Positions 3,601-11,390 of a stretch of DNA of 47,886 bases are shown here, piece by piece. This stretch comes from Chitinophaga pinensis (lineage in GTDB: Bacteria > Bacteroidota > Bacteroidia > 2-12-FULL-35-15): the NCBI GenBank assembly GCA_945865315.1, contig CAMBDK010000010.1:1-47886 (forward strand), given 5' to 3'. Under the pieces are notes generated by a model. It had not been told where the DNA came from. It searched no databases and saw nothing but the letters and a program-made list of their open reading frames with translations. Both the position numbers and the translations under genes were made by a program. The first letter of the stretch is position 1; each line of letters opens with the position of its first letter.

Positions 3601-5108
3601 TTACAAATACTGCTGTTAGTCCCAGCTTAGGGAATATAGCTGGCTGGTCATGGAATTTTGGTGATGGCACACCAATAAACACAGTAGCTTTGAGCCCTAG
3701 TCATTATTATTCAACTGCCGGGGATTATCAAATTACTTTAGTTACTTATTCATCAAATCTCGCTTGCTCCGATACTATCATCGATTCAATTACAATATAT
3801 CCTAAGCCTGCAGCCGATTTCGACTTTGTAGATGTGTGTTTAAATCAGCCGATGAATTTTACTGATCTTTCAAGTGTTGCAGGTGGAACCATAACAAGCT
3901 GGGCCTGGGATTTTAAAGACAACACAGCAATTGGGATTACGCAGGACCCAAGTCATGCCTATAATAGTCAAGGAGTATTCCCTGTTTTATTACTTGTAAC
4001 AGATAATAATAACTGTAATGATACCATATCTAAAAATGCATTAATTCATCCTTTGCCAGTTGTGGCATTTAGTGCATCAAAAACTTGCTTAGGTAGCCTT
4101 GCTGTTTTAACTGATTTATCAACTATTTCGCCCGGAAATAATTTACAGACATGGTCTTGGGATTTTGGCGATAACAGCGCTATTATTAATAATCAAAACA
4201 CAAGCCACCTGTATTCCGCAGTAAATTCCTATCCTGTTGAGTTGCTTGTAAGTTCTAACTTTGGTTGTTCCGATTCAATTACTAAAACAATTGTGATCAA
4301 TCCATATCCAATAGTTGATTTTGCTGCAAATGATTCTATCGGGTGCGAACTTTTTTGTGTCGGATTTCAAGACGCCTCCATTATATCGGGAGGTGTTAAT
4401 GTAAAGTGGCAATGGGATTTTGGTGATGGCAGCATCTCAAATAATTCGCAAAATTTAGACCACTGTTATTCGAATGATTCTGTTACTTCCGCAAATTATT
4501 TTGATGTTACCTTAACGGTTAGTTCCGATAGCGGCTGTGTAAGTGTTTTAACAAAAAGTAATTACATAACTGTATACCCCAATCCTGTTACAGAATTTAT
4601 CGCTCAGCCTAAAACAACAAGCATTATTGACCCTTCCATTTCAGTGGCAAACTTTTCTACTGGAGCTACTTTTTGGAATTGGGATTTCGGTGATTTCACA
4701 AGTTCTAGTTTAAGTAATCCAGAAGCTCATAATTATTCAGATACAGGATCCTATACCATCACTTTAATAGCATTTAATGCAAATGGCTGCAGCGATACTT
4801 CAAAAGAAACCATTATTATTATGCCCGAATATTCATTTTATATCCCCAACTCATTTACACCAAATGGGGATGGGAAAAATGATACATTTTCGGGTAAGGG
4901 CCTTTTTATCAAAGAATATGAAATGACAATTTTTAATCGCTGGGGTAGTCTCATTTTTAAAACAAACGACATTCATATTGGATGGGATGGGAAAACAAAA
5001 ATAAATGGCGAATTAGCAGAGTTGGGCGTATATGTTTATGATATTAATATTACGGATATCAATAAAGAAAGATACAATTATAATGGCACTGTAACTTTAG
5101 TGAGGTAA
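672..5108 (+). CDS. Giant secreted PKD-domain protein with T9SS type B (gliding motility-associated) C-terminus
   Basis: The first possible start is a GTG at 666, but ATG 672 gives a clean signal peptide (MKFISKILIIIIILIIPGS, cut near LQSQ). Mature order, by residue: about 25-205, an unassigned beta-rich domain that may bind ligand; about 207-220, a calcium-binding DGDGDGLSD / DNCP thrombospondin-type-3-like motif; about 225-370, two Ig-like segments with LWNTGST / IWNNGST; about 370-1380, twelve PKD domains, each with a W-x-W-x-F-x-D core such as WAWDFGD; about 1385-1478, the type B sorting domain (IPNSFTPNGDGKNDTF, FNRWG, GTVTLVR), as in the CHU_C / gliding-motility family. The protein should be exported by T9SS and stay at the surface or be released, as an adhesin or matrix scaffold. 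No catalytic domain is visible. PKD units 1-5 and 6-10 look like a tandem block duplication. Family assignment is firm; ligand unknown. Confidence 0.9.
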   Translation: MKFISKILIIIIILIIPGSLQSQIFPPAASLTTGQGAVGSNDPIWLATDWYTVVPPNPMGLTYAPALINNPCVTNFWVNPSTLPSPLNNGNWITGSGALCSGQTGYRYFRLPLNLPADCNGNSVTTVGNYVLYLSGYVDDGIIGVYINGNSTGFSGGSYGAGAQLNMTLAGPWLIGINYVDILVYNITGVYGLFVVANSTATSIADGDGDGLSDLYDNCPCEAGALANGCKASILGNTVICHGEGTTLTATGIGSYLWNTGSTNAAINVNPALPTGYYVIVTKPNGFKDSSYVYVNPAPLISVSGDTLLCQPENTVLTATGGGTYIWNNGSTNASITVNPMISSSYEVIVTCTNGCKDTLNQAVFVYPKPVANFNFTNKCFGIPIPFNSSSTINAASILTNWAWDFGDNTTGSGSSISHLYNLAGSYNVTLIVSSNKSCSDTIVQQITVYKIPLVNYSNVDVCLGDTMFFTNSSTVGSPAAIASYLWDFDDNGAASSIQNPTYFYPNAGTYNVKLIAITGDGCSDSIISPVNSFNPPSSAFSFSNSCLYDSALFVNNSLNPPDGTIVGWSWSFGDGGAPNTTVLSPSHLYSIAGNYTVTLITLSSNIGCPDTLQKIITIHPIPVANFSFIDVCLAETVNFYDSTKVLTDNIISWTWNFGDGTAQGSTQHPNHLYVNPGTYIVSLIATSNNGCNDTVIKNVVVHPLPVALFSALNVCADVNTTFTDQSTILSTDNLQSWAWGFGDANPVGPGNLLPNTFHLYTDTGTYLVKLIVHSNFGCVDSITKPVIVYANPVSNFNNTSVCNNSNTQFTDSSSSYSGNINSWLWDFDDGVAPVNTISSPSYLYNNAGTYNVTLIVNSSVGCADTIIKAVEVYYNPVANFNHVNVCAGDTTHFLNTSSIHNSTSIASYSWMFGDGGANSILQNPARFYTIGTYSVLLLTTSAEGCFDTASSLAYVFDAPISGFLLNNSCLYDSAKFTNTAVSPSLGNIAGWSWNFGDGTPINTVALSPSHYYSTAGDYQITLVTYSSNLACSDTIIDSITIYPKPAADFDFVDVCLNQPMNFTDLSSVAGGTITSWAWDFKDNTAIGITQDPSHAYNSQGVFPVLLLVTDNNNCNDTISKNALIHPLPVVAFSASKTCLGSLAVLTDLSTISPGNNLQTWSWDFGDNSAIINNQNTSHLYSAVNSYPVELLVSSNFGCSDSITKTIVINPYPIVDFAANDSIGCELFCVGFQDASIISGGVNVKWQWDFGDGSISNNSQNLDHCYSNDSVTSANYFDVTLTVSSDSGCVSVLTKSNYITVYPNPVTEFIAQPKTTSIIDPSISVANFSTGATFWNWDFGDFTSSSLSNPEAHNYSDTGSYTITLIAFNANGCSDTSKETIIIMPEYSFYIPNSFTPNGDGKNDTFSGKGLFIKEYEMTIFNRWGSLIFKTNDIHIGWDGKTKINGELAELGVYVYDINITDINKERYNYNGTVTLVR

Positions 5109-5190
5109 GTGATTGGACTTTTTTTGTTGAGGTGTTCTCTAATTATACCAATTATAGTTTCAAAATAGTCCAATCCAAGACCCAACCTAC

Positions 5191-5247
5191 TTTCTCGACT
5201 CCGCTCGAAAATCACCATGCGGGAAGTTAATTCGAGCGAAGTAGAAA
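5191..5247. repeat. Imperfect palindrome with CTCGA core
   Basis: TTTCTCGACTCCGCTCGAA (5191-5209) and TTCGAGCGAAGTAGAAA (5231-5247) form an imperfect inverted repeat with a 21-bp loop. Its GC content is clearly higher than the flanks. It sits between a plus-strand and a minus-strand gene that converge. It could be a dispersed palindromic element; only one copy is seen in this window. Confidence 0.4.
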
Positions 5248-5324
5248 TAGTGCTGCTTAATAAAAATGGACGAATATATATTTACAAATGGTATTATTTA
5301 ACAATCTTTAATATTTTTGTAAAA

Positions 5325-5356
5325 AAAACGCCTGTGTTTTTTTACACAAGCGTTTT
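5325..5356 (-). terminator. Terminator of the secreted T9SS gene at 5.4-7.0 kb
   Basis: The arms AAAACGCCTGTGT and ACACAAGCGTTTT pair over 13 positions with one mismatch, around a short T loop. The A-run at 5321-5328 gives a U-tract on the minus-strand transcript. It begins 25 nt after the stop of the minus-strand gene and may also stop plus-strand readthrough from the PKD gene. Confidence 0.75.
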
Positions 5357-5380
5357 AACGATAAAATGATTTAAAGAATA

Positions 5381-7030
5381 CTATTTAATAACAACCATTT
5401 TTAAATTTTTCTTTGAATTTTCAGAGATAATTGATGCATAATAAATTCCGGAAGGTAAATTAGAGGTATCAATTTTAATAGTATTGCTACCTGAATTCAT
5501 TTCTCCTGAAAATATATTTGCTATAACTTTTCCGGTGATATCATAAACAGTTATCGCAATTTTTGACGCTTCATTTAAATTTACATCAACAGTAGCTTCG
5601 TTAGTAATTGGGTTTGGATATAAATTAATACCGCTGATTTTATTTTCACCTCCGGTAATACCAGCTACCATGTTCCCAAATTTATTATCAGTAAAAGATG
5701 CACCAGTTGCAGCTATTGATGAGGAATCCAAACGATAATCAGGTGTGGAGGATAGCGCTGCTGGGAATCCATTTACCCAAGCGATTGCTGTTGTAGCTTT
5801 TGTTGAATCACTATTATCCTCTGAAAAAATTGTGCTGTACATCAATAGGGAAGCATTTGCATCTGTAGTAATTGCTTTGCTTATATCCGATGCTATTAAA
5901 TTATTTGCAAATACGGCAGAGTCGTTTACAGCAAAGTTGTCAACTGTGCCAGCATCTTTCAAATAGATACCTTTTTCCCAAGAAGCAGCAATGGAGTTAA
6001 ACACCGAAATAGAAGAGTTTCTGCGAATATAAAAAGCTCTTTCAAATTTTTCACCAACAGGTAATGTTACTGTACCATTGCGTTTTGGTCCGATGCTGGT
6101 AATATTAGAGAAGATAGCTTGTGTTCTTGGGAAATTTGCTGTTCCTGTGGCATCGTTATCTGACTCAAAACCGTTTGAATCACCTGCAGCATCAAATAAG
6201 TCAGGATCTCTTACAATCAAACCAAATTGTATACGTCCGCTAAATCCATAATCAGTATCAAAATCATCATCGGTACCACGGAATGCAATGAGGTATTTTG
6301 CATCTACAGTTCCACCAAACCACTCATAACTATCATCACCTGAAAACGAAACTTGCACATGGTCAATCTTTGTTTTTGAACCTACCGAACCAAATGTTAA
6401 GCCATTGATTTCTTTATTTGGTATAAAAGCGATACCCGGAAATTCAATCCTTACATAAGAAAATACTCCGGAACTATCCTGGTCATTTGTTCCGCCATAT
6501 TCACTTTCAGCGGAAACAACAATACCTTCTATATTAGCAATGCCGCCTGGTTGATTGTTTTTTGCATTCCCCAGAATAACAACTCCTCCCCAATCACCTT
6601 CTGCCCTTGAACCGGCAGCTTCACCAGAAGTAAATATAATCGGATTACTTGAGGTACCCTGTGCTATAATTTTTGAACTTTTTGTAATCAGTAAAGTACC
6701 TTGTGTTGCTTTGTCGCCAAGAATAATAACACCCGCTTGAATGGTTAATACAGCATTGTTTTTTACATAAATTTTATTTTGCAACAAAACAATTGTCCCT
6801 GTTGTCCAGGTGGTATTACTTGTGATGTCAGCACTTACTGTCATTGTCGGCGCACCATAAGCTGTATTTTCAGGATCAAAATTTGTCCAGCCATTTGTCC
6901 AGTCTGTTGCTTCTGTGTTATCAGTTACCGGAAATGCTCCTTTATAAATTGTTGGGGTCCAAAAAGCAGTTTGTGCATTTAATGAACCTCCTATTAAGCC
7001 CGCCAAGGCTAGCGTGTAAATTTTTTTCAT
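5381..7030 (-). CDS. Secreted repeat-rich protein with T9SS type A sorting domain, partner of the adjacent TonB receptor
   Basis: An upstream in-frame start exists at 7075, but ATG 7030 begins a standard signal peptide (MKKIYTLALAGLIGGSLNAQ), so 549 residues are preferred. The first half is rich in the alternating V/I pattern of a right-handed beta-helix or similar repeat (for example IYVKNNAVLTIQAGVIILG, with GDWGGVVILGNA and DSYEWFGGTVDAKYLIAF further on). Acidic DDDFDTDYGF and ESDND stretches could bind calcium. The last ~75 residues are a type A sorting domain (INLYPNPITNEATVDVNL, VYDITGKV, LPSGIYYASI). It is expected to be a surface or released protein. It lies directly downstream of a TonB-dependent receptor on the same strand and its upstream region shares a TTAACATTA motif with that receptor's, so a joint uptake role is likely. 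The substrate is unknown. Confidence 0.85.
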   Translation of the reverse strand: MKKIYTLALAGLIGGSLNAQTAFWTPTIYKGAFPVTDNTEATDWTNGWTNFDPENTAYGAPTMTVSADITSNTTWTTGTIVLLQNKIYVKNNAVLTIQAGVIILGDKATQGTLLITKSSKIIAQGTSSNPIIFTSGEAAGSRAEGDWGGVVILGNAKNNQPGGIANIEGIVVSAESEYGGTNDQDSSGVFSYVRIEFPGIAFIPNKEINGLTFGSVGSKTKIDHVQVSFSGDDSYEWFGGTVDAKYLIAFRGTDDDFDTDYGFSGRIQFGLIVRDPDLFDAAGDSNGFESDNDATGTANFPRTQAIFSNITSIGPKRNGTVTLPVGEKFERAFYIRRNSSISVFNSIAASWEKGIYLKDAGTVDNFAVNDSAVFANNLIASDISKAITTDANASLLMYSTIFSEDNSDSTKATTAIAWVNGFPAALSSTPDYRLDSSSIAATGASFTDNKFGNMVAGITGGENKISGINLYPNPITNEATVDVNLNEASKIAITVYDITGKVIANIFSGEMNSGSNTIKIDTSNLPSGIYYASIISENSKKNLKMVVIK

Positions 7031-7122
7031 TTTTTTAATTGGAATTAATGTTTGTTTAAAATATTTTTTGCACAAAAGTAATCTGGAGGTGTTGTGTGAT
7101 AATTAAGAAGAGGTTGTGTGTT

Positions 7123-7151
7123 TCTTATTAAAACTTTATCTTAATGTTAAG
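7123..7151 (-). promoter_or_regulatory. Candidate operator, TTAACA-type 11-bp periodic boxes
   Basis: Reading the minus strand from 7151, CTTAACATTAAG is followed by ATAAAG and ATAAGA at exact 11-bp steps (starts at 7150, 7139, 7128). The first box is identical over 10 bases (CTTAACATTA) to one upstream of the neighbouring TonB receptor. An 11-bp period suits tandem binding by an OmpR/PhoB-class response regulator. The assignment is inference; the second and third boxes are weak. Confidence 0.35.
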
Positions 7152-7205
7152 AGCGAAAAAATGGGAATAACTCTTTTTTGATGACTTGCTTGCAAGATGC
7201 AGGGT

Positions 7206-10061
7206 TTAAAATTTATAAGAAACACCAAGAGAAATGATTTGTCCATAATTGGTGTCAATCATAGTATTATCCTCTGCCTTATCAAATTTGCCATTTTTAT
7301 CGATGTCCTGATAAAAAATTAGATTTTGGGCAAAGACATCCCGTACATTCAATTTTATTTCTAGATTTTCTTTTATTTTTTTTGCAATTTGAAAGTCTAG
7401 AACATTGCGTTGCTTTTCCCAATAATCAGGCTCGCTGGTGCTTCCTACAATATAAATTCTTTTGCCTACTAGGTTGTAAGATGCACTTAAACTTAAGCCA
7501 TTTGTTGGATGAATAAATTGAATTCCTGCATTTACAATAACGGGAGATTGACCTTGCAAGGGGCGTTCAGCAGTAGTGGCTCCGTTTATTTTGCTAACGT
7601 CTACTTTTGATTGTATATATGAAAAATTAGTATATAGGGTGGTAGCGGATAAAAATGGTATAGAATCATTTCGGAACATTGTACTTAATTTAAAACGGTA
7701 TTCTAATTCTACTCCAATGTTAGTTGCTTTTGGAACGTTTACATAATACAGTTCGCGCAAAACATCAGGGCGATTGACTTGCTCAACAGCATTCGTAAAA
7801 TTTTTGTAAAAACCGGAGACAGAAATTAATTGTCCTGCACCGGGATAATATTCAAAGCGTAAATCATAATTATCAATCAACGCCCTTTGTAAATTGGGGT
7901 TTCCGGAAACTGCAAAATCGGTTACAAAATCAAAAAATATAAAAGGTGCTAATTCCCTAAATTCAGGGCGGGATACTGTACGGTAATAGCTGGCTCTGAT
8001 ATTTATTTTATCGGTTAAGGAATATATTAAATTGACGGAAGGTAAAAAATCATTTACCGTTGTATCTATATCAACAGGCGCGTTGCTCCCGTCTTTTATA
8101 GTATGTAACTGCTGATTATAGGATTCAATACGCACACCGTAAATCACTCTCAAGCGTTCAAAAAATTTTGAATCAAACATCGCAAACCCAGCATTTAAAA
8201 GTGAGGATGCAGTATAACTATCGCTGGTTTTGGTGGCTTCATCTAATTTGAACCCCCCGTTATTGGGTCCTGGCTTATCAAGTATTCCCATATTGGTACT
8301 TGCAAAAATTTCCTCTTCAGGCAATAATAACAATTGGCTATTAAATTTTACTGCACTTCCTTTTCTATATTTAGAGAATCCTAAATTACGCGCCTCAAAG
8401 CTTCTGTCTCTGTATTGATGAAATCCTCCAATTTTCAGATCCGTTTTTACTCCTTTAATTGCACAGGGATAATTTGCTTCATATTTAAAACTATAAATGT
8501 TTTCATTTGTTTTTGAAAAAAACATATTTCCTGCCGCATTTGGTATGGTCCCTTCATTTTGTACAATAGCAGCATAAAGATTTGTTGTATCATCTTCCAT
8601 TGTTGCTGTTTTTTGATATACTATTCGCCTCATGTTTGGCACATCACGCTTGATATCACTCAATCCGCCAATCCATTTTATTTTTATTTTAGAATTTGGC
8701 AATAAATGATCTCCACTTAATTGACCTGTATAAAGTATATTCTGAGTAAACCAAAAAAGGGATGATTTTTCCCAAATTTTTTCTGGTTGATCAAATTCAC
8801 GGGCCCCCTTTCTTAAAGTTACTTTATCATCGCTATTTACACTTAATAAATTTTTAAAGTTGATCTGATTGTTATCATTTATTTTGTATCCCATATTCCA
8901 CATTCCACTTGCAAGTATTGCTTGTGTATATTGCTGGTCATTAAGTTCCATACGTTTTATAACGCCAGTTGATTGTTCCTCATACTCACGCCTTATTGTT
9001 TCATTGTAGTTATAATTATTCTGATACGTTAATGCAAAAATGCTACCAATCTCACGATTAAATATTTTGCCAACATTAGCAATACTATACTGAGCATTAA
9101 GGGAAGGTAAAGCATTGATAGTTTTTATTTTCCATGAAGGAGTAAGCTGTTTAGCAAGTTCTCCTTTTTGTTCAACCGACAAATGTGAAAACTCTGCTGT
9201 AGTGGGAAGATTAGAAGGCAATGCTCTTGTTCCATCGTCAATGCCAAGCAAATCATATTTCCCGCCATCATATGTTTTAAATGTTTTAAATGTAGTGATG
9301 GTATTATATGAACCTGCTATAGAGAATATTTGTTCGTTTTTATCAGGTATGCTTTTGGTATTTATTTGAATAATTCCTCCTGCAAATTCTCCAGGCATAT
9401 CGGGCGTAGCAGTTTTTATTATTAGCAAATTATCCAACATATTGGAAGGGAAAATATCAAAGGCAAACGCTTTTCTATCCGACTCCGAACTTGGTAATGG
9501 CGCACCATTAATGTAAGCCGCATTATAACGATCGTTTAATCCTCTGATGATGGCAAATTTATTATCCTGGATGCTAGCACCACTAATTCGTTTTAGTACA
9601 TCACTCGTATTCCTGTCAGGTGTTCTTTTTATTGATTCTGATGAAATCCCATCCGATACCGATGCATTGTTTTTTTGCATCACCAACATAGCATTCGTTG
9701 TTTCTTTGCTCATTGTTGCAATAATTTCAATTACACCCAAATCGGTTGACGCCGTTCCCAAACTGATGCTTATAATTGTTGGTTCGCCTGATTTTACAAT
9801 TACATCAGTAAGTATTTTGGTATTGTAGGAAATTAATTTTGACACCAATGTATATTTCCCAGGCGCTACATTTTTAAATGTAAAAGCACCATCTAGATCG
9901 GTATTGCTGCCTGTAACTGTTCCTTCAATTACAACTATTGCACCAGGTAATGTTTCACCTGTTTTTTCATCAATCACTATTCCTTTTATGCTTGAGTTTT
10001 GCCCACATAGAACCTTTAGAGACAAAATAAAGAGCAGCAGGGAAAATAATTTCAATTTCAT
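7206..10061 (-). CDS. TonB-dependent outer-membrane receptor with CarboxypepD_reg-like domain
   Basis: Of the upstream ATGs, 10061 gives the proper signal peptide (MKLKLFSLLLFILSLKV), making 951 residues. About 25-105: a CarboxypepD_reg-like beta-sandwich (GIVIDEKTGETLPGAIVVIE ... DLDGAFTFKNVAPGKYTL). About 135-245: the plug, with RGLNDRYNAAYINGAPLPSS and ATPDMPGEFAGGIIQINTK. The rest is a 22-strand-type barrel with YRTVSRPEFRELAPF near residue 690 and a terminal phenylalanine (LGVSYKF), the usual BamA signal. It imports a substrate across the outer membrane using TonB energy. The secreted T9SS protein follows 175 bp downstream on the same strand. The TTAAC-type boxes upstream hint at a phosphate-type regulator, but the ligand cannot be read from the sequence. 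Confidence 0.9.
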   Translation of the reverse strand: MKLKLFSLLLFILSLKVLCGQNSSIKGIVIDEKTGETLPGAIVVIEGTVTGSNTDLDGAFTFKNVAPGKYTLVSKLISYNTKILTDVIVKSGEPTIISISLGTASTDLGVIEIIATMSKETTNAMLVMQKNNASVSDGISSESIKRTPDRNTSDVLKRISGASIQDNKFAIIRGLNDRYNAAYINGAPLPSSESDRKAFAFDIFPSNMLDNLLIIKTATPDMPGEFAGGIIQINTKSIPDKNEQIFSIAGSYNTITTFKTFKTYDGGKYDLLGIDDGTRALPSNLPTTAEFSHLSVEQKGELAKQLTPSWKIKTINALPSLNAQYSIANVGKIFNREIGSIFALTYQNNYNYNETIRREYEEQSTGVIKRMELNDQQYTQAILASGMWNMGYKINDNNQINFKNLLSVNSDDKVTLRKGAREFDQPEKIWEKSSLFWFTQNILYTGQLSGDHLLPNSKIKIKWIGGLSDIKRDVPNMRRIVYQKTATMEDDTTNLYAAIVQNEGTIPNAAGNMFFSKTNENIYSFKYEANYPCAIKGVKTDLKIGGFHQYRDRSFEARNLGFSKYRKGSAVKFNSQLLLLPEEEIFASTNMGILDKPGPNNGGFKLDEATKTSDSYTASSLLNAGFAMFDSKFFERLRVIYGVRIESYNQQLHTIKDGSNAPVDIDTTVNDFLPSVNLIYSLTDKINIRASYYRTVSRPEFRELAPFIFFDFVTDFAVSGNPNLQRALIDNYDLRFEYYPGAGQLISVSGFYKNFTNAVEQVNRPDVLRELYYVNVPKATNIGVELEYRFKLSTMFRNDSIPFLSATTLYTNFSYIQSKVDVSKINGATTAERPLQGQSPVIVNAGIQFIHPTNGLSLSASYNLVGKRIYIVGSTSEPDYWEKQRNVLDFQIAKKIKENLEIKLNVRDVFAQNLIFYQDIDKNGKFDKAEDNTMIDTNYGQIISLGVSYKF

Positions 10062-10113
10062 TTTAATCTTTGTTTTATTTGCGTGCAAAGTAATTGGTAA
10101 AAGTTCGAAGCTG

Positions 10114-10141
10114 CGTTAATTAAAAATTAAAATAATGTTAA
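10114..10141 (-). promoter_or_regulatory. Three TTAA(C) boxes at 11-bp spacing upstream of the TonB receptor
   Basis: On the minus strand TTAACA (from 10141), TTAATT (from 10130) and TTAACG (from 10119) are spaced by exactly 11 bp, ending about 53 nt before the receptor start. Tandem 11-bp direct repeats are the architecture of Pho boxes, and TTAACA is the half-site of the Bacillus PhoP box. The flank CTTAACATTA is shared with the upstream region of the secreted partner. The regulator itself is inference. Confidence 0.45.
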
Positions 10142-10349
10142 GGAAATGCTTATTTATCTCCAGTTTAGTAATATTAATATAATCGTAACTTAACATTTGG
10201 ATCATATTTAAAAATCAATTTTATACTAATTTATATACTAAATCATAATAAAATAGGGCATATCAATAAAGACTTGTCAATTCTAAAAATCTTCTTTTTC
10301 CCTTGTTTTCTTTTTTATAATAAATCCCCAAATTATATGTCTATTTTAA

Positions 10350-10584: not shown

Positions 10585-11166
10585 TTGAAAAAAACACCCC
10601 AGTTTTATAAAGCAAAATTCTTTTATATTGTAATCTTATTGTTTTTTTCTTCTATAACAAGGGGAAATGAAGCTGATACTGTTAAAAAAAATCAATTGTT
10701 TGAATTGAGTTTTGGTCAATCACTGTTATTTATTTCAGATAGTAAAGTAGCGAATTTGCGAAATAGGGAGGCTGTAATTATTCCAACAAATGCAATACTT
10801 TTTTTTGCTGAATTCTTTCCTCAAAAAAAAATTAGGATTCCTGTATTTTTCAATTTACCAACAGAAACTAAACAGTTTTTGATAAATAATTTACTAGTAA
10901 ATGAGCGCGCAAATCCATCTTTTGGTTTTGGAATAGAATATAATTTTTTTCAAATAAAGTTAGACTCGAAGTCCAAACTGGAATTTGAAATTGGACCTTT
11001 GGCAACTTTTGTTTTAGATAAAAACAATACGATAAGGGTACTTCCTACTTTAGCAGGCCGACTGCGCATCATGCGAGGGGAAGATTTTGTAATGTATATT
11101 GGTACAAGTTATTCAGTTGGGATTAATAGCTGGGGATTACTTTATGGAACAGGGACTGTTTTTTAA
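10585..11166 (+). CDS. Small outer-membrane beta-barrel protein, hypothetical
   Basis: The 193-residue frame starts with TTG. No in-frame ATG follows until late in the protein, and the TTG gives a good signal peptide (basic MKKTPQFYKAK, then FFYIVILLFFSSITRG). The mature part alternates hydrophobic and polar residues in strands ending with aromatic residues (FGFGIEYNFFQIKL, FEIGPLATFVL, LAGRLRIMRG, MYIGTSYSVGINSWGLLYG) and terminates in phenylalanine. This is the pattern of an 8-stranded barrel. I recognise no named family. It is transcribed divergently from the TonB receptor. A strong hairpin follows it. Confidence 0.65.
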   Translation: MKKTPQFYKAKFFYIVILLFFSSITRGNEADTVKKNQLFELSFGQSLLFISDSKVANLRNREAVIIPTNAILFFAEFFPQKKIRIPVFFNLPTETKQFLINNLLVNERANPSFGFGIEYNFFQIKLDSKSKLEFEIGPLATFVLDKNNTIRVLPTLAGRLRIMRGEDFVMYIGTSYSVGINSWGLLYGTGTVF

Positions 11167-11314: not shown

Positions 11315-11318
11315 CAAG

Positions 11319-11390
11319 TAGTTTCGAGAGGAATCGAACCTCCATCAAAGCTTTAGGAAAGCCCTATTCTGTCCATTGAACTACGAAACC
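11319..11390 (-). tRNA. tRNA-Arg (anticodon CCT)
   Basis: A full cloverleaf can be drawn on the minus strand in 72 nt. Acceptor GGTTTCG pairs with CGAAACT (one G-U at the end) with discriminator A. D arm: GTTC/GAAT. Anticodon stem: GGGCT/AGCTT with loop TTCCTAA, giving anticodon CCT, which reads AGG. Variable loop: TGAT. T arm: GGAGG/CCTCT with TTCGATT. CCA is not encoded. A consensus promoter lies upstream and a strong hairpin downstream, so it is probably a single-gene transcript. Confidence 0.93.

Follow-up and report, generated by a model that had tools for sequence, protein, structure and literature searches.

The 47,886-nt stretch of Chitinophaga pinensis DNA analysed here (contig CAMBDK010000010.1 of assembly GCA_945865315.1, positions 1 to 47,886; hereafter the window) contains a gene for a TonB-dependent receptor (7206–10061, minus strand) followed by a gene for a secreted partner protein (5381–7030, minus strand), and both promoters carry arrays of 11-bp repeat units. 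Judged from the promoter sequences and their distribution, the two genes very probably belong to the Pho regulon and are predicted to encode a PhoB-activated uptake pair for phosphate starvation, in a genome that encodes PhoB, PhoR and a PiT permease and in which neither PstB nor PhoU was detected. The original prediction had recognized the geometry of Pho boxes and had proposed control by phosphate limitation; that reading is supported by profile enrichment at phosphate genes, by conservation of the boxes and by the gene neighbourhoods of relatives.

The box upstream of the receptor gene (10114–10141, minus strand) consists of three 11-bp units, TTAACA-N5-TTAATT-N5-TTAACG; it is the top whole-genome match of a profile built without the window and is conserved in relatives. 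The exact 11-bp steps that had been pointed out for these units withstood dinucleotide shuffling of the 200-nt upstream region (n = 1000), i.e. their score was reached by 6 of the 1000 shuffles, and steps of 9, 10, 12 and 13 gave p-values of 0.175 to 0.95 (array p-values, here and below, carry no correction for having tried five steps and two array lengths). The array upstream of the partner gene (7085–7150, minus strand) comprises six units, namely TTAACA, ATAAAG, ATAAGA, ACAACC, TTAATT and ACAACA. The original prediction took in the first three of these only and described the pattern as weaker than that of the receptor. As a triple it is weak (p = 0.157 at the 11-bp step, beaten by a 10-bp triple with p = 0.037), and the three-unit reading was dropped in favour of six units; the six-unit array, which extends to position 7085, is significant at the 11-bp step (p = 0.009) and at no other. 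The units at both promoters are thus tandem direct repeats with an 11-nt period, and these results confirm that the boxes are real. Each array is followed by a -7 element on the same strand: TTACTTTG (10086–10093) in the receptor promoter, with its last G 55 nt from the first box base, and TTACTTTTG (7073–7081) in the partner promoter, with its last G at 77 nt.

Genome-wide, boxes of this type are associated with phosphate genes. A profile (R1) trained on 14 receptor boxes, all from relatives and none from the window, produced 28 matches at an E-value of 10 or less in the genome to which the window belongs. The window receptor ranked first (E = 0.003) and phoB second (E = 0.015), and oprP and the gene for a DUF47-PiT permease ranked 5th (E = 0.85) and 12th (E = 4.9), respectively, in keeping with the enrichment at phosphate genes that had been foreseen. 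Twenty-four of the matches could be placed (the other four lay in shortened loci), of which six were located in sense orientation within 400 nt upstream of an open reading frame (ORF) of at least 100 amino acids; four of the six were those of the receptor, phoB, oprP and DUF47-PiT genes. When a second profile (R2), for which boxes from the receptor, PiT, oprP, pst and partner promoters of relatives had been pooled, was run on the same genome, the receptor ranked first, oprP second and PiT fifth.

R1 was also applied to 29 genomes of the genus (this one included) at an E-value of 0.5 or less per genome, and 32 of the 40 resulting matches were inspected. They comprised 11 receptor genes (7 of them members of the R1 training set), 10 DUF47-PiT genes, one phoB, one pstS, one pstC and 8 unclear cases, so that 24 of the 32 precede receptor, PiT, pst or phoB genes; among the 21 non-receptor matches, 13 precede PiT, pst or phoB genes. 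The box is therefore present before other phosphate genes both in this genome (phoB, oprP and DUF47-PiT) and in relatives (PiT, pstS and pstC). On a set of 76 named loci, R1 gave 29 matches at an E-value of 3 or less, 16 of which were sense-upstream (receptor, 8; partner, 3; PhoB-labelled, 4; OprP, 1). This result was given no weight, because six of the eight receptor matches are at training loci and the loci had been chosen for the pair. The designations DUF47, PstA, rpiB, nadA, folP, trmB, YwqK and ppk used in this work were given by eye from translations and are to be taken as presumed names.

Conservation at orthologous loci was likewise found. In eight loci from the same genus, the receptor box and its spacing to the -7 element are kept, with box scores of 14–15 of 15; most of these boxes are TTAACACTATTTTAATTTTTGATTAACG or close to it, and 20 nt further on TTACTTTG or a near match occurs. 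The partner array is kept as well: the partner promoters of eight same-genus loci, two of which (L053 and L054) have unit scores short of significance (p = 0.147 and 0.32, respectively), align without gaps across the six units to the -7 element. Across near and far relatives, window included, the best box lies on the coding strand in 64 of 72 receptor promoters, many of the scores being low. The receptor promoter of Fibrisoma limi BUZ 3 reaches 14 of 15, but a search for a phased -7 element found none there. With genes called by a crude procedure, a box score of at least 12 of 15 was reached in 76 of 149 receptor or partner promoters versus 21 of 401 other promoters of the same loci.

The position of the arrays relative to the -7 element follows a rule. 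The phase was taken as the distance that separates the last G of TAn(n)TTTG from the first box base; TAnnTTTG is a form that we take to be the Bacteroidota promoter type. In the genome of the window, this distance is 55 nt for the receptor, 77 for the partner, 55 for phoB, 55 for oprP and 44 for PiT, all multiples of 11; an extra TAn(n)TTTG before phoB is out of phase, at 67. Over the promoters of this genome and the receptor, PiT and pst promoters of relatives, 21 of 23 elements are in phase. One PiT relative lies out of register at 76, three receptor relatives have a half-match -7 element only (at 55), and no TAn(n)TTTG element was found before two PiT relatives and the YwqK-like gene of this genome. 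Among loci outside this first set, taken without regard to genus, a box of at least 12 of 15 was present in 34 receptor and 38 partner promoters, 16 and 13 of which, respectively, had a scorable -7 element (the rest had none). Twelve of the 16 and all 13 were in phase, i.e. 25 of 29 compared with 9.1% under random box placement, at distances of 44, 55, 66 and 77 nt; the counts are non-independent because some of the loci are closely related to one another. When counted more widely, 26 of 34 elements were in phase. The 401 other promoters contained just two scorable -7 elements, neither of them in phase, which is too few for a comparison. Because the multiples differ between loci, shared ancestry would not by itself readily account for the register.

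A phased element also occurs at one of the eight unclear R1 matches of the genus scan. In this locus (L248, genome G012), a box near 1501–1524 on the minus strand, with a phase of exactly 55, precedes the gene for a 476-amino-acid protein with a signal-like start, which is a candidate new Pho gene.

The gene neighbourhoods of relatives add independent support for the phosphate reading. The receptor gene is divergent from a gene for a PhoB-type regulator in L048, L049, L051, L053, L054, L058, L059 and L065, and in six of these eight loci a gene for a PhoR-type kinase comes next after phoB. In L050, the receptor gene adjoins oprP-pstS-pstC-pstA, and in L052 it is located before oprP-pstSCAB-phoU. 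Near the pair in the 76 named loci, a PhoB-like gene (at least 54% identity) was found in 18, an OprP, PstS or PhoU gene in 5 and either kind in 21; representatives of the neighbours exceeded a model's cut-off for OprP (Pfam) and for PstS, PstC, PstB and PhoU (Pfam, NCBIfam). Partner homologues occur in 24 of 41 genomes (this one and relatives; the stretches around 20 places were taken), and in 64 of the 76 loci a receptor homologue is encoded no more than 1.5 kb away from the partner and in the same orientation. In the phoB–receptor intergenic region of L048, L049, L053, L054, L058, L059 and L065, a second triple array is present nearer phoB; it perhaps serves phoB itself and, since TTAA is palindromic, can be read on either strand.

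In the genome of the window (G000), phoB is located on contig C22 (27136–27819) and encodes a regulator with a receiver domain and a winged-helix domain (PF00072 and PF00486) that is 78% identical to the PhoB encoded beside phoR in L054. The phoR gene is located on C2 (32064–33068; product 68% identical to the PhoR of L054), the PiT gene on C31 and the gene for the OprP-type porin on C104. In L051 and L053, a trmB-like gene, phoR, phoB and the receptor gene lie in one stretch. This block seems to have been broken up in G000, since its phoR still adjoins a trmB-like gene. G000 gave no match to PhoU and no PstB, its best ABC ATPase reaching 163.5 of the 343.2 bits required; because the draft is 98% complete and in 195 contigs, the absence of the two is likely, not certain. 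A complete pst-phoU system was sought in this genome and not found, and the genes that follow the OprP gene on C104 are not pst by eye.

A genome of this kind could have retained the boxes of a former Pho member while its PhoR–PhoB system came to answer another signal, in which case the pair would not be controlled by phosphate. The absence of a PhoU match and of a PstB above the cut-off, and the separate locations of phoB and phoR, are compatible with such a change, and the PhoP/PhoR system of Riemerella affects many genes that are not tied to phosphate (PMC9603813). We nevertheless regard it as unlikely: the same kind of box, in the same phase, still stands before the PiT and porin genes of G000, plant-associated Bacteroidetes lacking Pst (PstSABC) are reported to possess TonB receptors inducible by low phosphate (PMC8115612), and the absence of PstB and PhoU rests on a draft assembly.

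The arrays might also be read by a paralogue of PhoB, here called PhoB2 (G000:C74:4563–5246), instead of PhoB or along with it. PhoB2 is 51% identical to the PhoB of a relative and has a nearly identical recognition helix; the existence of such a paralogue also weighs against the main reading. Three of the top 14 R2 matches in G000 are on C74, around PhoB2 and its neighbour; L050 and L051 retain the box of its own promoter, and in both of these loci a PhoB2-type gene is found within about 5 kb of the pair. PhoB2 has glutamate at the position of the aspartate that is presumed to be the phospho-acceptor of PhoB, which might allow it to act independently of phosphate. However, the PhoB2 of L050 and L051 retains the aspartate, the outer units of the box before PhoB2 are TTTACA and not TTAACA, the receptor gene is divergent from phoB itself in the eight same-genus loci, and phoB is the second R1 match in G000. 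On balance, a role of PhoB2 in place of or beside PhoB appears quite unlikely, and PhoB remains the preferred regulator. In the C74 segment at 4398–6447 (L074), where PhoB2 lies amid three R2 matches, a double TTAACA-type box precedes the YwqK-like gene, both here and in L050.

Several observations weigh against the assignment of the pair to the Pho regulon or restrict its reach. With regard to the promoters of relatives, 73 of the 149 receptor or partner promoters have no good box; receptor promoters score only 10–11 of 15 in Larkinella loci and in most Spirosoma, Dysgonomonas and Parabacteroides loci; the receptor promoter of L050 lacks a good triple (12 of 15, p = 0.155); and the relatives are non-independent samples, several loci being closely related. 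In the scans, the R1 matches of oprP and PiT are weak when judged by E-value alone, phoB is not among the 33 matches of R2 in G000, and at the E-value applied, chance could account for as many as about 14 of the 40 genus matches. Two of the 10 PiT matches (L246 and L249) extend to about 16 nt from the start codon and are not followed by a -7 element. The third R1 match in G000 (E = 0.15) is an array before an rpiB-like gene and the fourth (E = 0.65) is intragenic, in a folP-like gene on C22; both were left as unexplained or chance. PhoB and PhoR fall below the curated cut-offs of NCBIfam: the PhoB of G000 reaches 218.6 of 296.2 and 217.3 of 270 bits for TIGR02154 and NF053854, respectively, and the phoR-linked PhoB of L054 also falls short of these models (221.8 and 218.4 bits). 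Furthermore, phoB and phoR are unlinked in G000 and the pair has no phoB neighbour there. Finally, in Caulobacter the TonB receptor gene cc0171 has been reported to be constitutive, unlike its neighbour elpS (PMC2996285). Apart from these points, the site of the third R1 match (C57:16248–16274) lies between a nadA-like and an rpiB-like gene, which are far apart here, in intergenic DNA, and has no -7 element of the scored kind.

Two further negative counts bear on whether the TTAAC periodicity could have arisen by accident in an AT-rich genome (the G+C content of the window is 33%) or could reflect a curved-DNA property that strong promoters have in general. The decamer CTTAACATTA, which had been noted before both genes on the same strand, is indeed present in two window copies (7142–7151 and 10133–10142, minus strand); at least two copies also occurred in 4 of 100 shuffles of the window, so that the decamer alone is weak evidence, and it is not enriched genome-wide (22 copies versus 29 of a reversed control). 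As stand-alone evidence, the shared decamer was rejected on these counts. The strict pattern TTAAC-N6-TTAAN-N6-TTAAC, with which the genome was to be scanned, did not perform as anticipated: it has an exact match at the receptor alone, and with up to one mismatch it gave 9 matches versus 28 for the reversed control. As it yields fewer matches than its control, this pattern, which is not enriched in the genome, is too crude, and the weighted profile works. An accidental or structural origin of the periodicity is nonetheless extremely improbable in view of the conservation across species with exact spacing, the association with phosphate genes and the excess of boxes in receptor and partner promoters (76 of 149 versus 21 of 401).

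The sequences show boxes that are conserved, associated with phosphate genes and phased, and they show the neighbourhoods and the homology of the two proteins; from this, the following mechanism may be proposed. Under phosphate scarcity, the sensor kinase PhoR would phosphorylate PhoB, which would bind head-to-tail to the TTAAC-type 11-bp units, of which the receptor promoter has at least three and the partner promoter six. As the array ends in a constant phase relative to the -7 element TAn(n)TTTG, the last bound PhoB would be placed to recruit the Bacteroidota-type RNA polymerase, and both genes would be induced. Activation appears more plausible than repression because the array lies just upstream of the -7 element and because induction of analogous genes has been published for F. 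johnsoniae. The products, a TonB receptor of the outer membrane and a beta-helix protein presumably exported by the type IX secretion system (T9SS), may be physical partners and would together probably capture and import a phosphate-bearing compound as their substrate. Phosphate would then enter the cytoplasm through the PiT permease, whose promoter carries a similar box; this route is proposed because the genome shows no PstB or PhoU.

The receptor consists of 951 amino acids, with a CarboxypepD-reg domain, a plug and a barrel (Pfam, NCBIfam); its best NCBIfam match, TIGR01782 (TonB-Xanth-Caul), scored 217.5 bits, which is below the curated cut-off of 310. The partner (549 amino acids) has an N-terminal signal-like segment, a predicted right-handed beta-helix at approximately residues 55–415 and a C-terminal T9SS type A sorting domain (residues 470–547, encoded by 5390–5623 on the minus strand; PF18962, E = 9.4e-15; TIGR04183, E = 5.4e-12). 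Its N-terminus, MKKIYTLALAGLIGGSLNAQ, contains no cysteine; the protein therefore lacks the mark of a lipoprotein and has the T9SS tail instead. In structural alignments with VIA-align, the AlphaFold model of the partner (predicted local distance difference test score, 86.4) matched many beta-helix proteins with Z-scores of 17–22, the best chain giving a Z-score of 22.1 and a root-mean-square deviation of 3.4 Å over 276 residues. These matches show the predicted fold of the partner, a right-handed beta-helix, and no substrate. Foldseek on its own gave weak or partial matches, and a sequence search of the PDB with the partner returned a match to its tail only (E = 0.013). Because several acidic residues are invariant across 39 partner sequences, D232, D233, E236, D254, D255, D258 and D260 among them, they may form a metal or catalytic site. 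Beside the receptor gene, the window contains an ORF of 193 amino acids (10585–11166, plus strand) with no Pfam match and a weak NCBIfam match below the cut-off. A tRNA-Arg gene (anticodon cct) is located at 11318–11390 (minus strand).

The unit arrangement agrees with that of the PHO boxes of PhoB and PhoP in E. coli, B. subtilis and others, which are built of tandem 11-nt direct repeats. The units here are of the type TTAACATTnnn, compared with CTGTCAT in E. coli, and three to six of them are set against the Bacteroidota -7 element TAnnTTTG with spacing in multiples of 11. The window unit may resemble the B. subtilis PhoP box. Head-to-tail binding to tandem 11-nt units is described as established in several bacteria (PMC4415409).

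Pairs resembling that of the window are known from phosphate-regulated loci. In F. johnsoniae, as described by Lidbury et al. (PMC8115612), the receptor Fjoh_0545 and the lipoprotein FII (Fjoh_0546) are encoded in the phoBR cluster and are strongly induced at low phosphate; FI, FII and FIII are 31–36% identical to the Caulobacter lipoprotein over roughly half the length, FI and FII were modelled as polygalacturonase-like, and the term 'pho box' is absent from the main text. Going by that description, both pairs combine a TonB receptor with a secreted pectin-lyase-fold protein, but the barrel domain of Fjoh_0545 differs (pf14905) and its partner is a lipoprotein, which the window partner is not. 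Le Blastier et al. 2010 (PMC2996285) report that in Caulobacter the type II secretion genes are directly preceded by elpS (cc0170) and cc0171, and that the cells produce ElpS when starved of phosphate. When plasmids were searched with the partner by tblastn, 22 records matched, three of which were inspected. In the alphaproteobacterium Indioceanicola profundi, genes for a partner homologue (31% identity, E = 1e-47), a TonB receptor homologous to that of the window (26%, E = 5e-72), gspN, gspD and gspE occur in that order, so that homologues of both window proteins reproduce the order of the ElpS locus, i.e. partner, TonB receptor, gsp genes. A TonB receptor gene follows the partner homologue on a Hymenobacter plasmid, and none adjoins it on a Marinobacter plasmid. 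Unlike ElpS as described, the partner encoded in the window ends in a T9SS tail and lacks a lipoprotein cysteine, and the receptor precedes it.

For Bacteroidota, the nearest precedents appear to be the PhoP motif of Riemerella anatipestifer and the putative Pho boxes of plcP clusters. The former, derived by DNA affinity purification sequencing from 583 peaks, has TTTAACA as its most conserved part; PhoP is autoregulated, the promoter of a TonB receptor was among the targets tested by electrophoretic mobility shift assay, and 50 target genes were altered in the mutant (PMC9603813). These features are like those found here, but the account of that motif, as consulted, describes no 11-bp array or phosphate genes. 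The plcP boxes were computed for marine bacteria, flavobacteria among them, and marked on gene maps (PMC4796936); the descriptions of these maps, as consulted, give no box sequence and do not state which flavobacterial clusters had one. In Bacteroides fragilis, PhoB binds the pstC promoter (512-bp fragment), and dependence on PhoB is described for the pst genes and for a putative phosphate permease (PMC3547664); the report as consulted gives no box sequence.

Precedents thus exist for PHO boxes, for PhoB in Bacteroidota and for phosphate-regulated receptor/ElpS-like pairs, and the literature searched yielded no defined Pho box sequence for this phylum and none with a register rule. What is new is that, at the five Pho promoters of G000 and for 25 of the 29 elements scored elsewhere, the last G of the -7 element lies at a whole multiple of 11 nt (44–77) from the first box base. 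We see an even chance that many Bacteroidota share a Pho promoter code in which this distance is 44, 55, 66 or 77 nt and whole units are gained or lost without a change of register; PhoB would then act like a ruler whose length varies but whose end always abuts RNA polymerase. The code may not extend across the whole phylum, since low box scores were obtained in several of the named genera. If it is true, the phosphate regulon could be named in uncultured genomes, including those without Pst and PhoU and with separated phoB and phoR. The phase rule is a simple, testable promoter rule, and together with the profile it would make phosphate regulons readable directly from the genomes of this abundant phylum and would assign a widespread, uncharacterized pair of a TonB receptor and a beta-helix protein to phosphorus acquisition.

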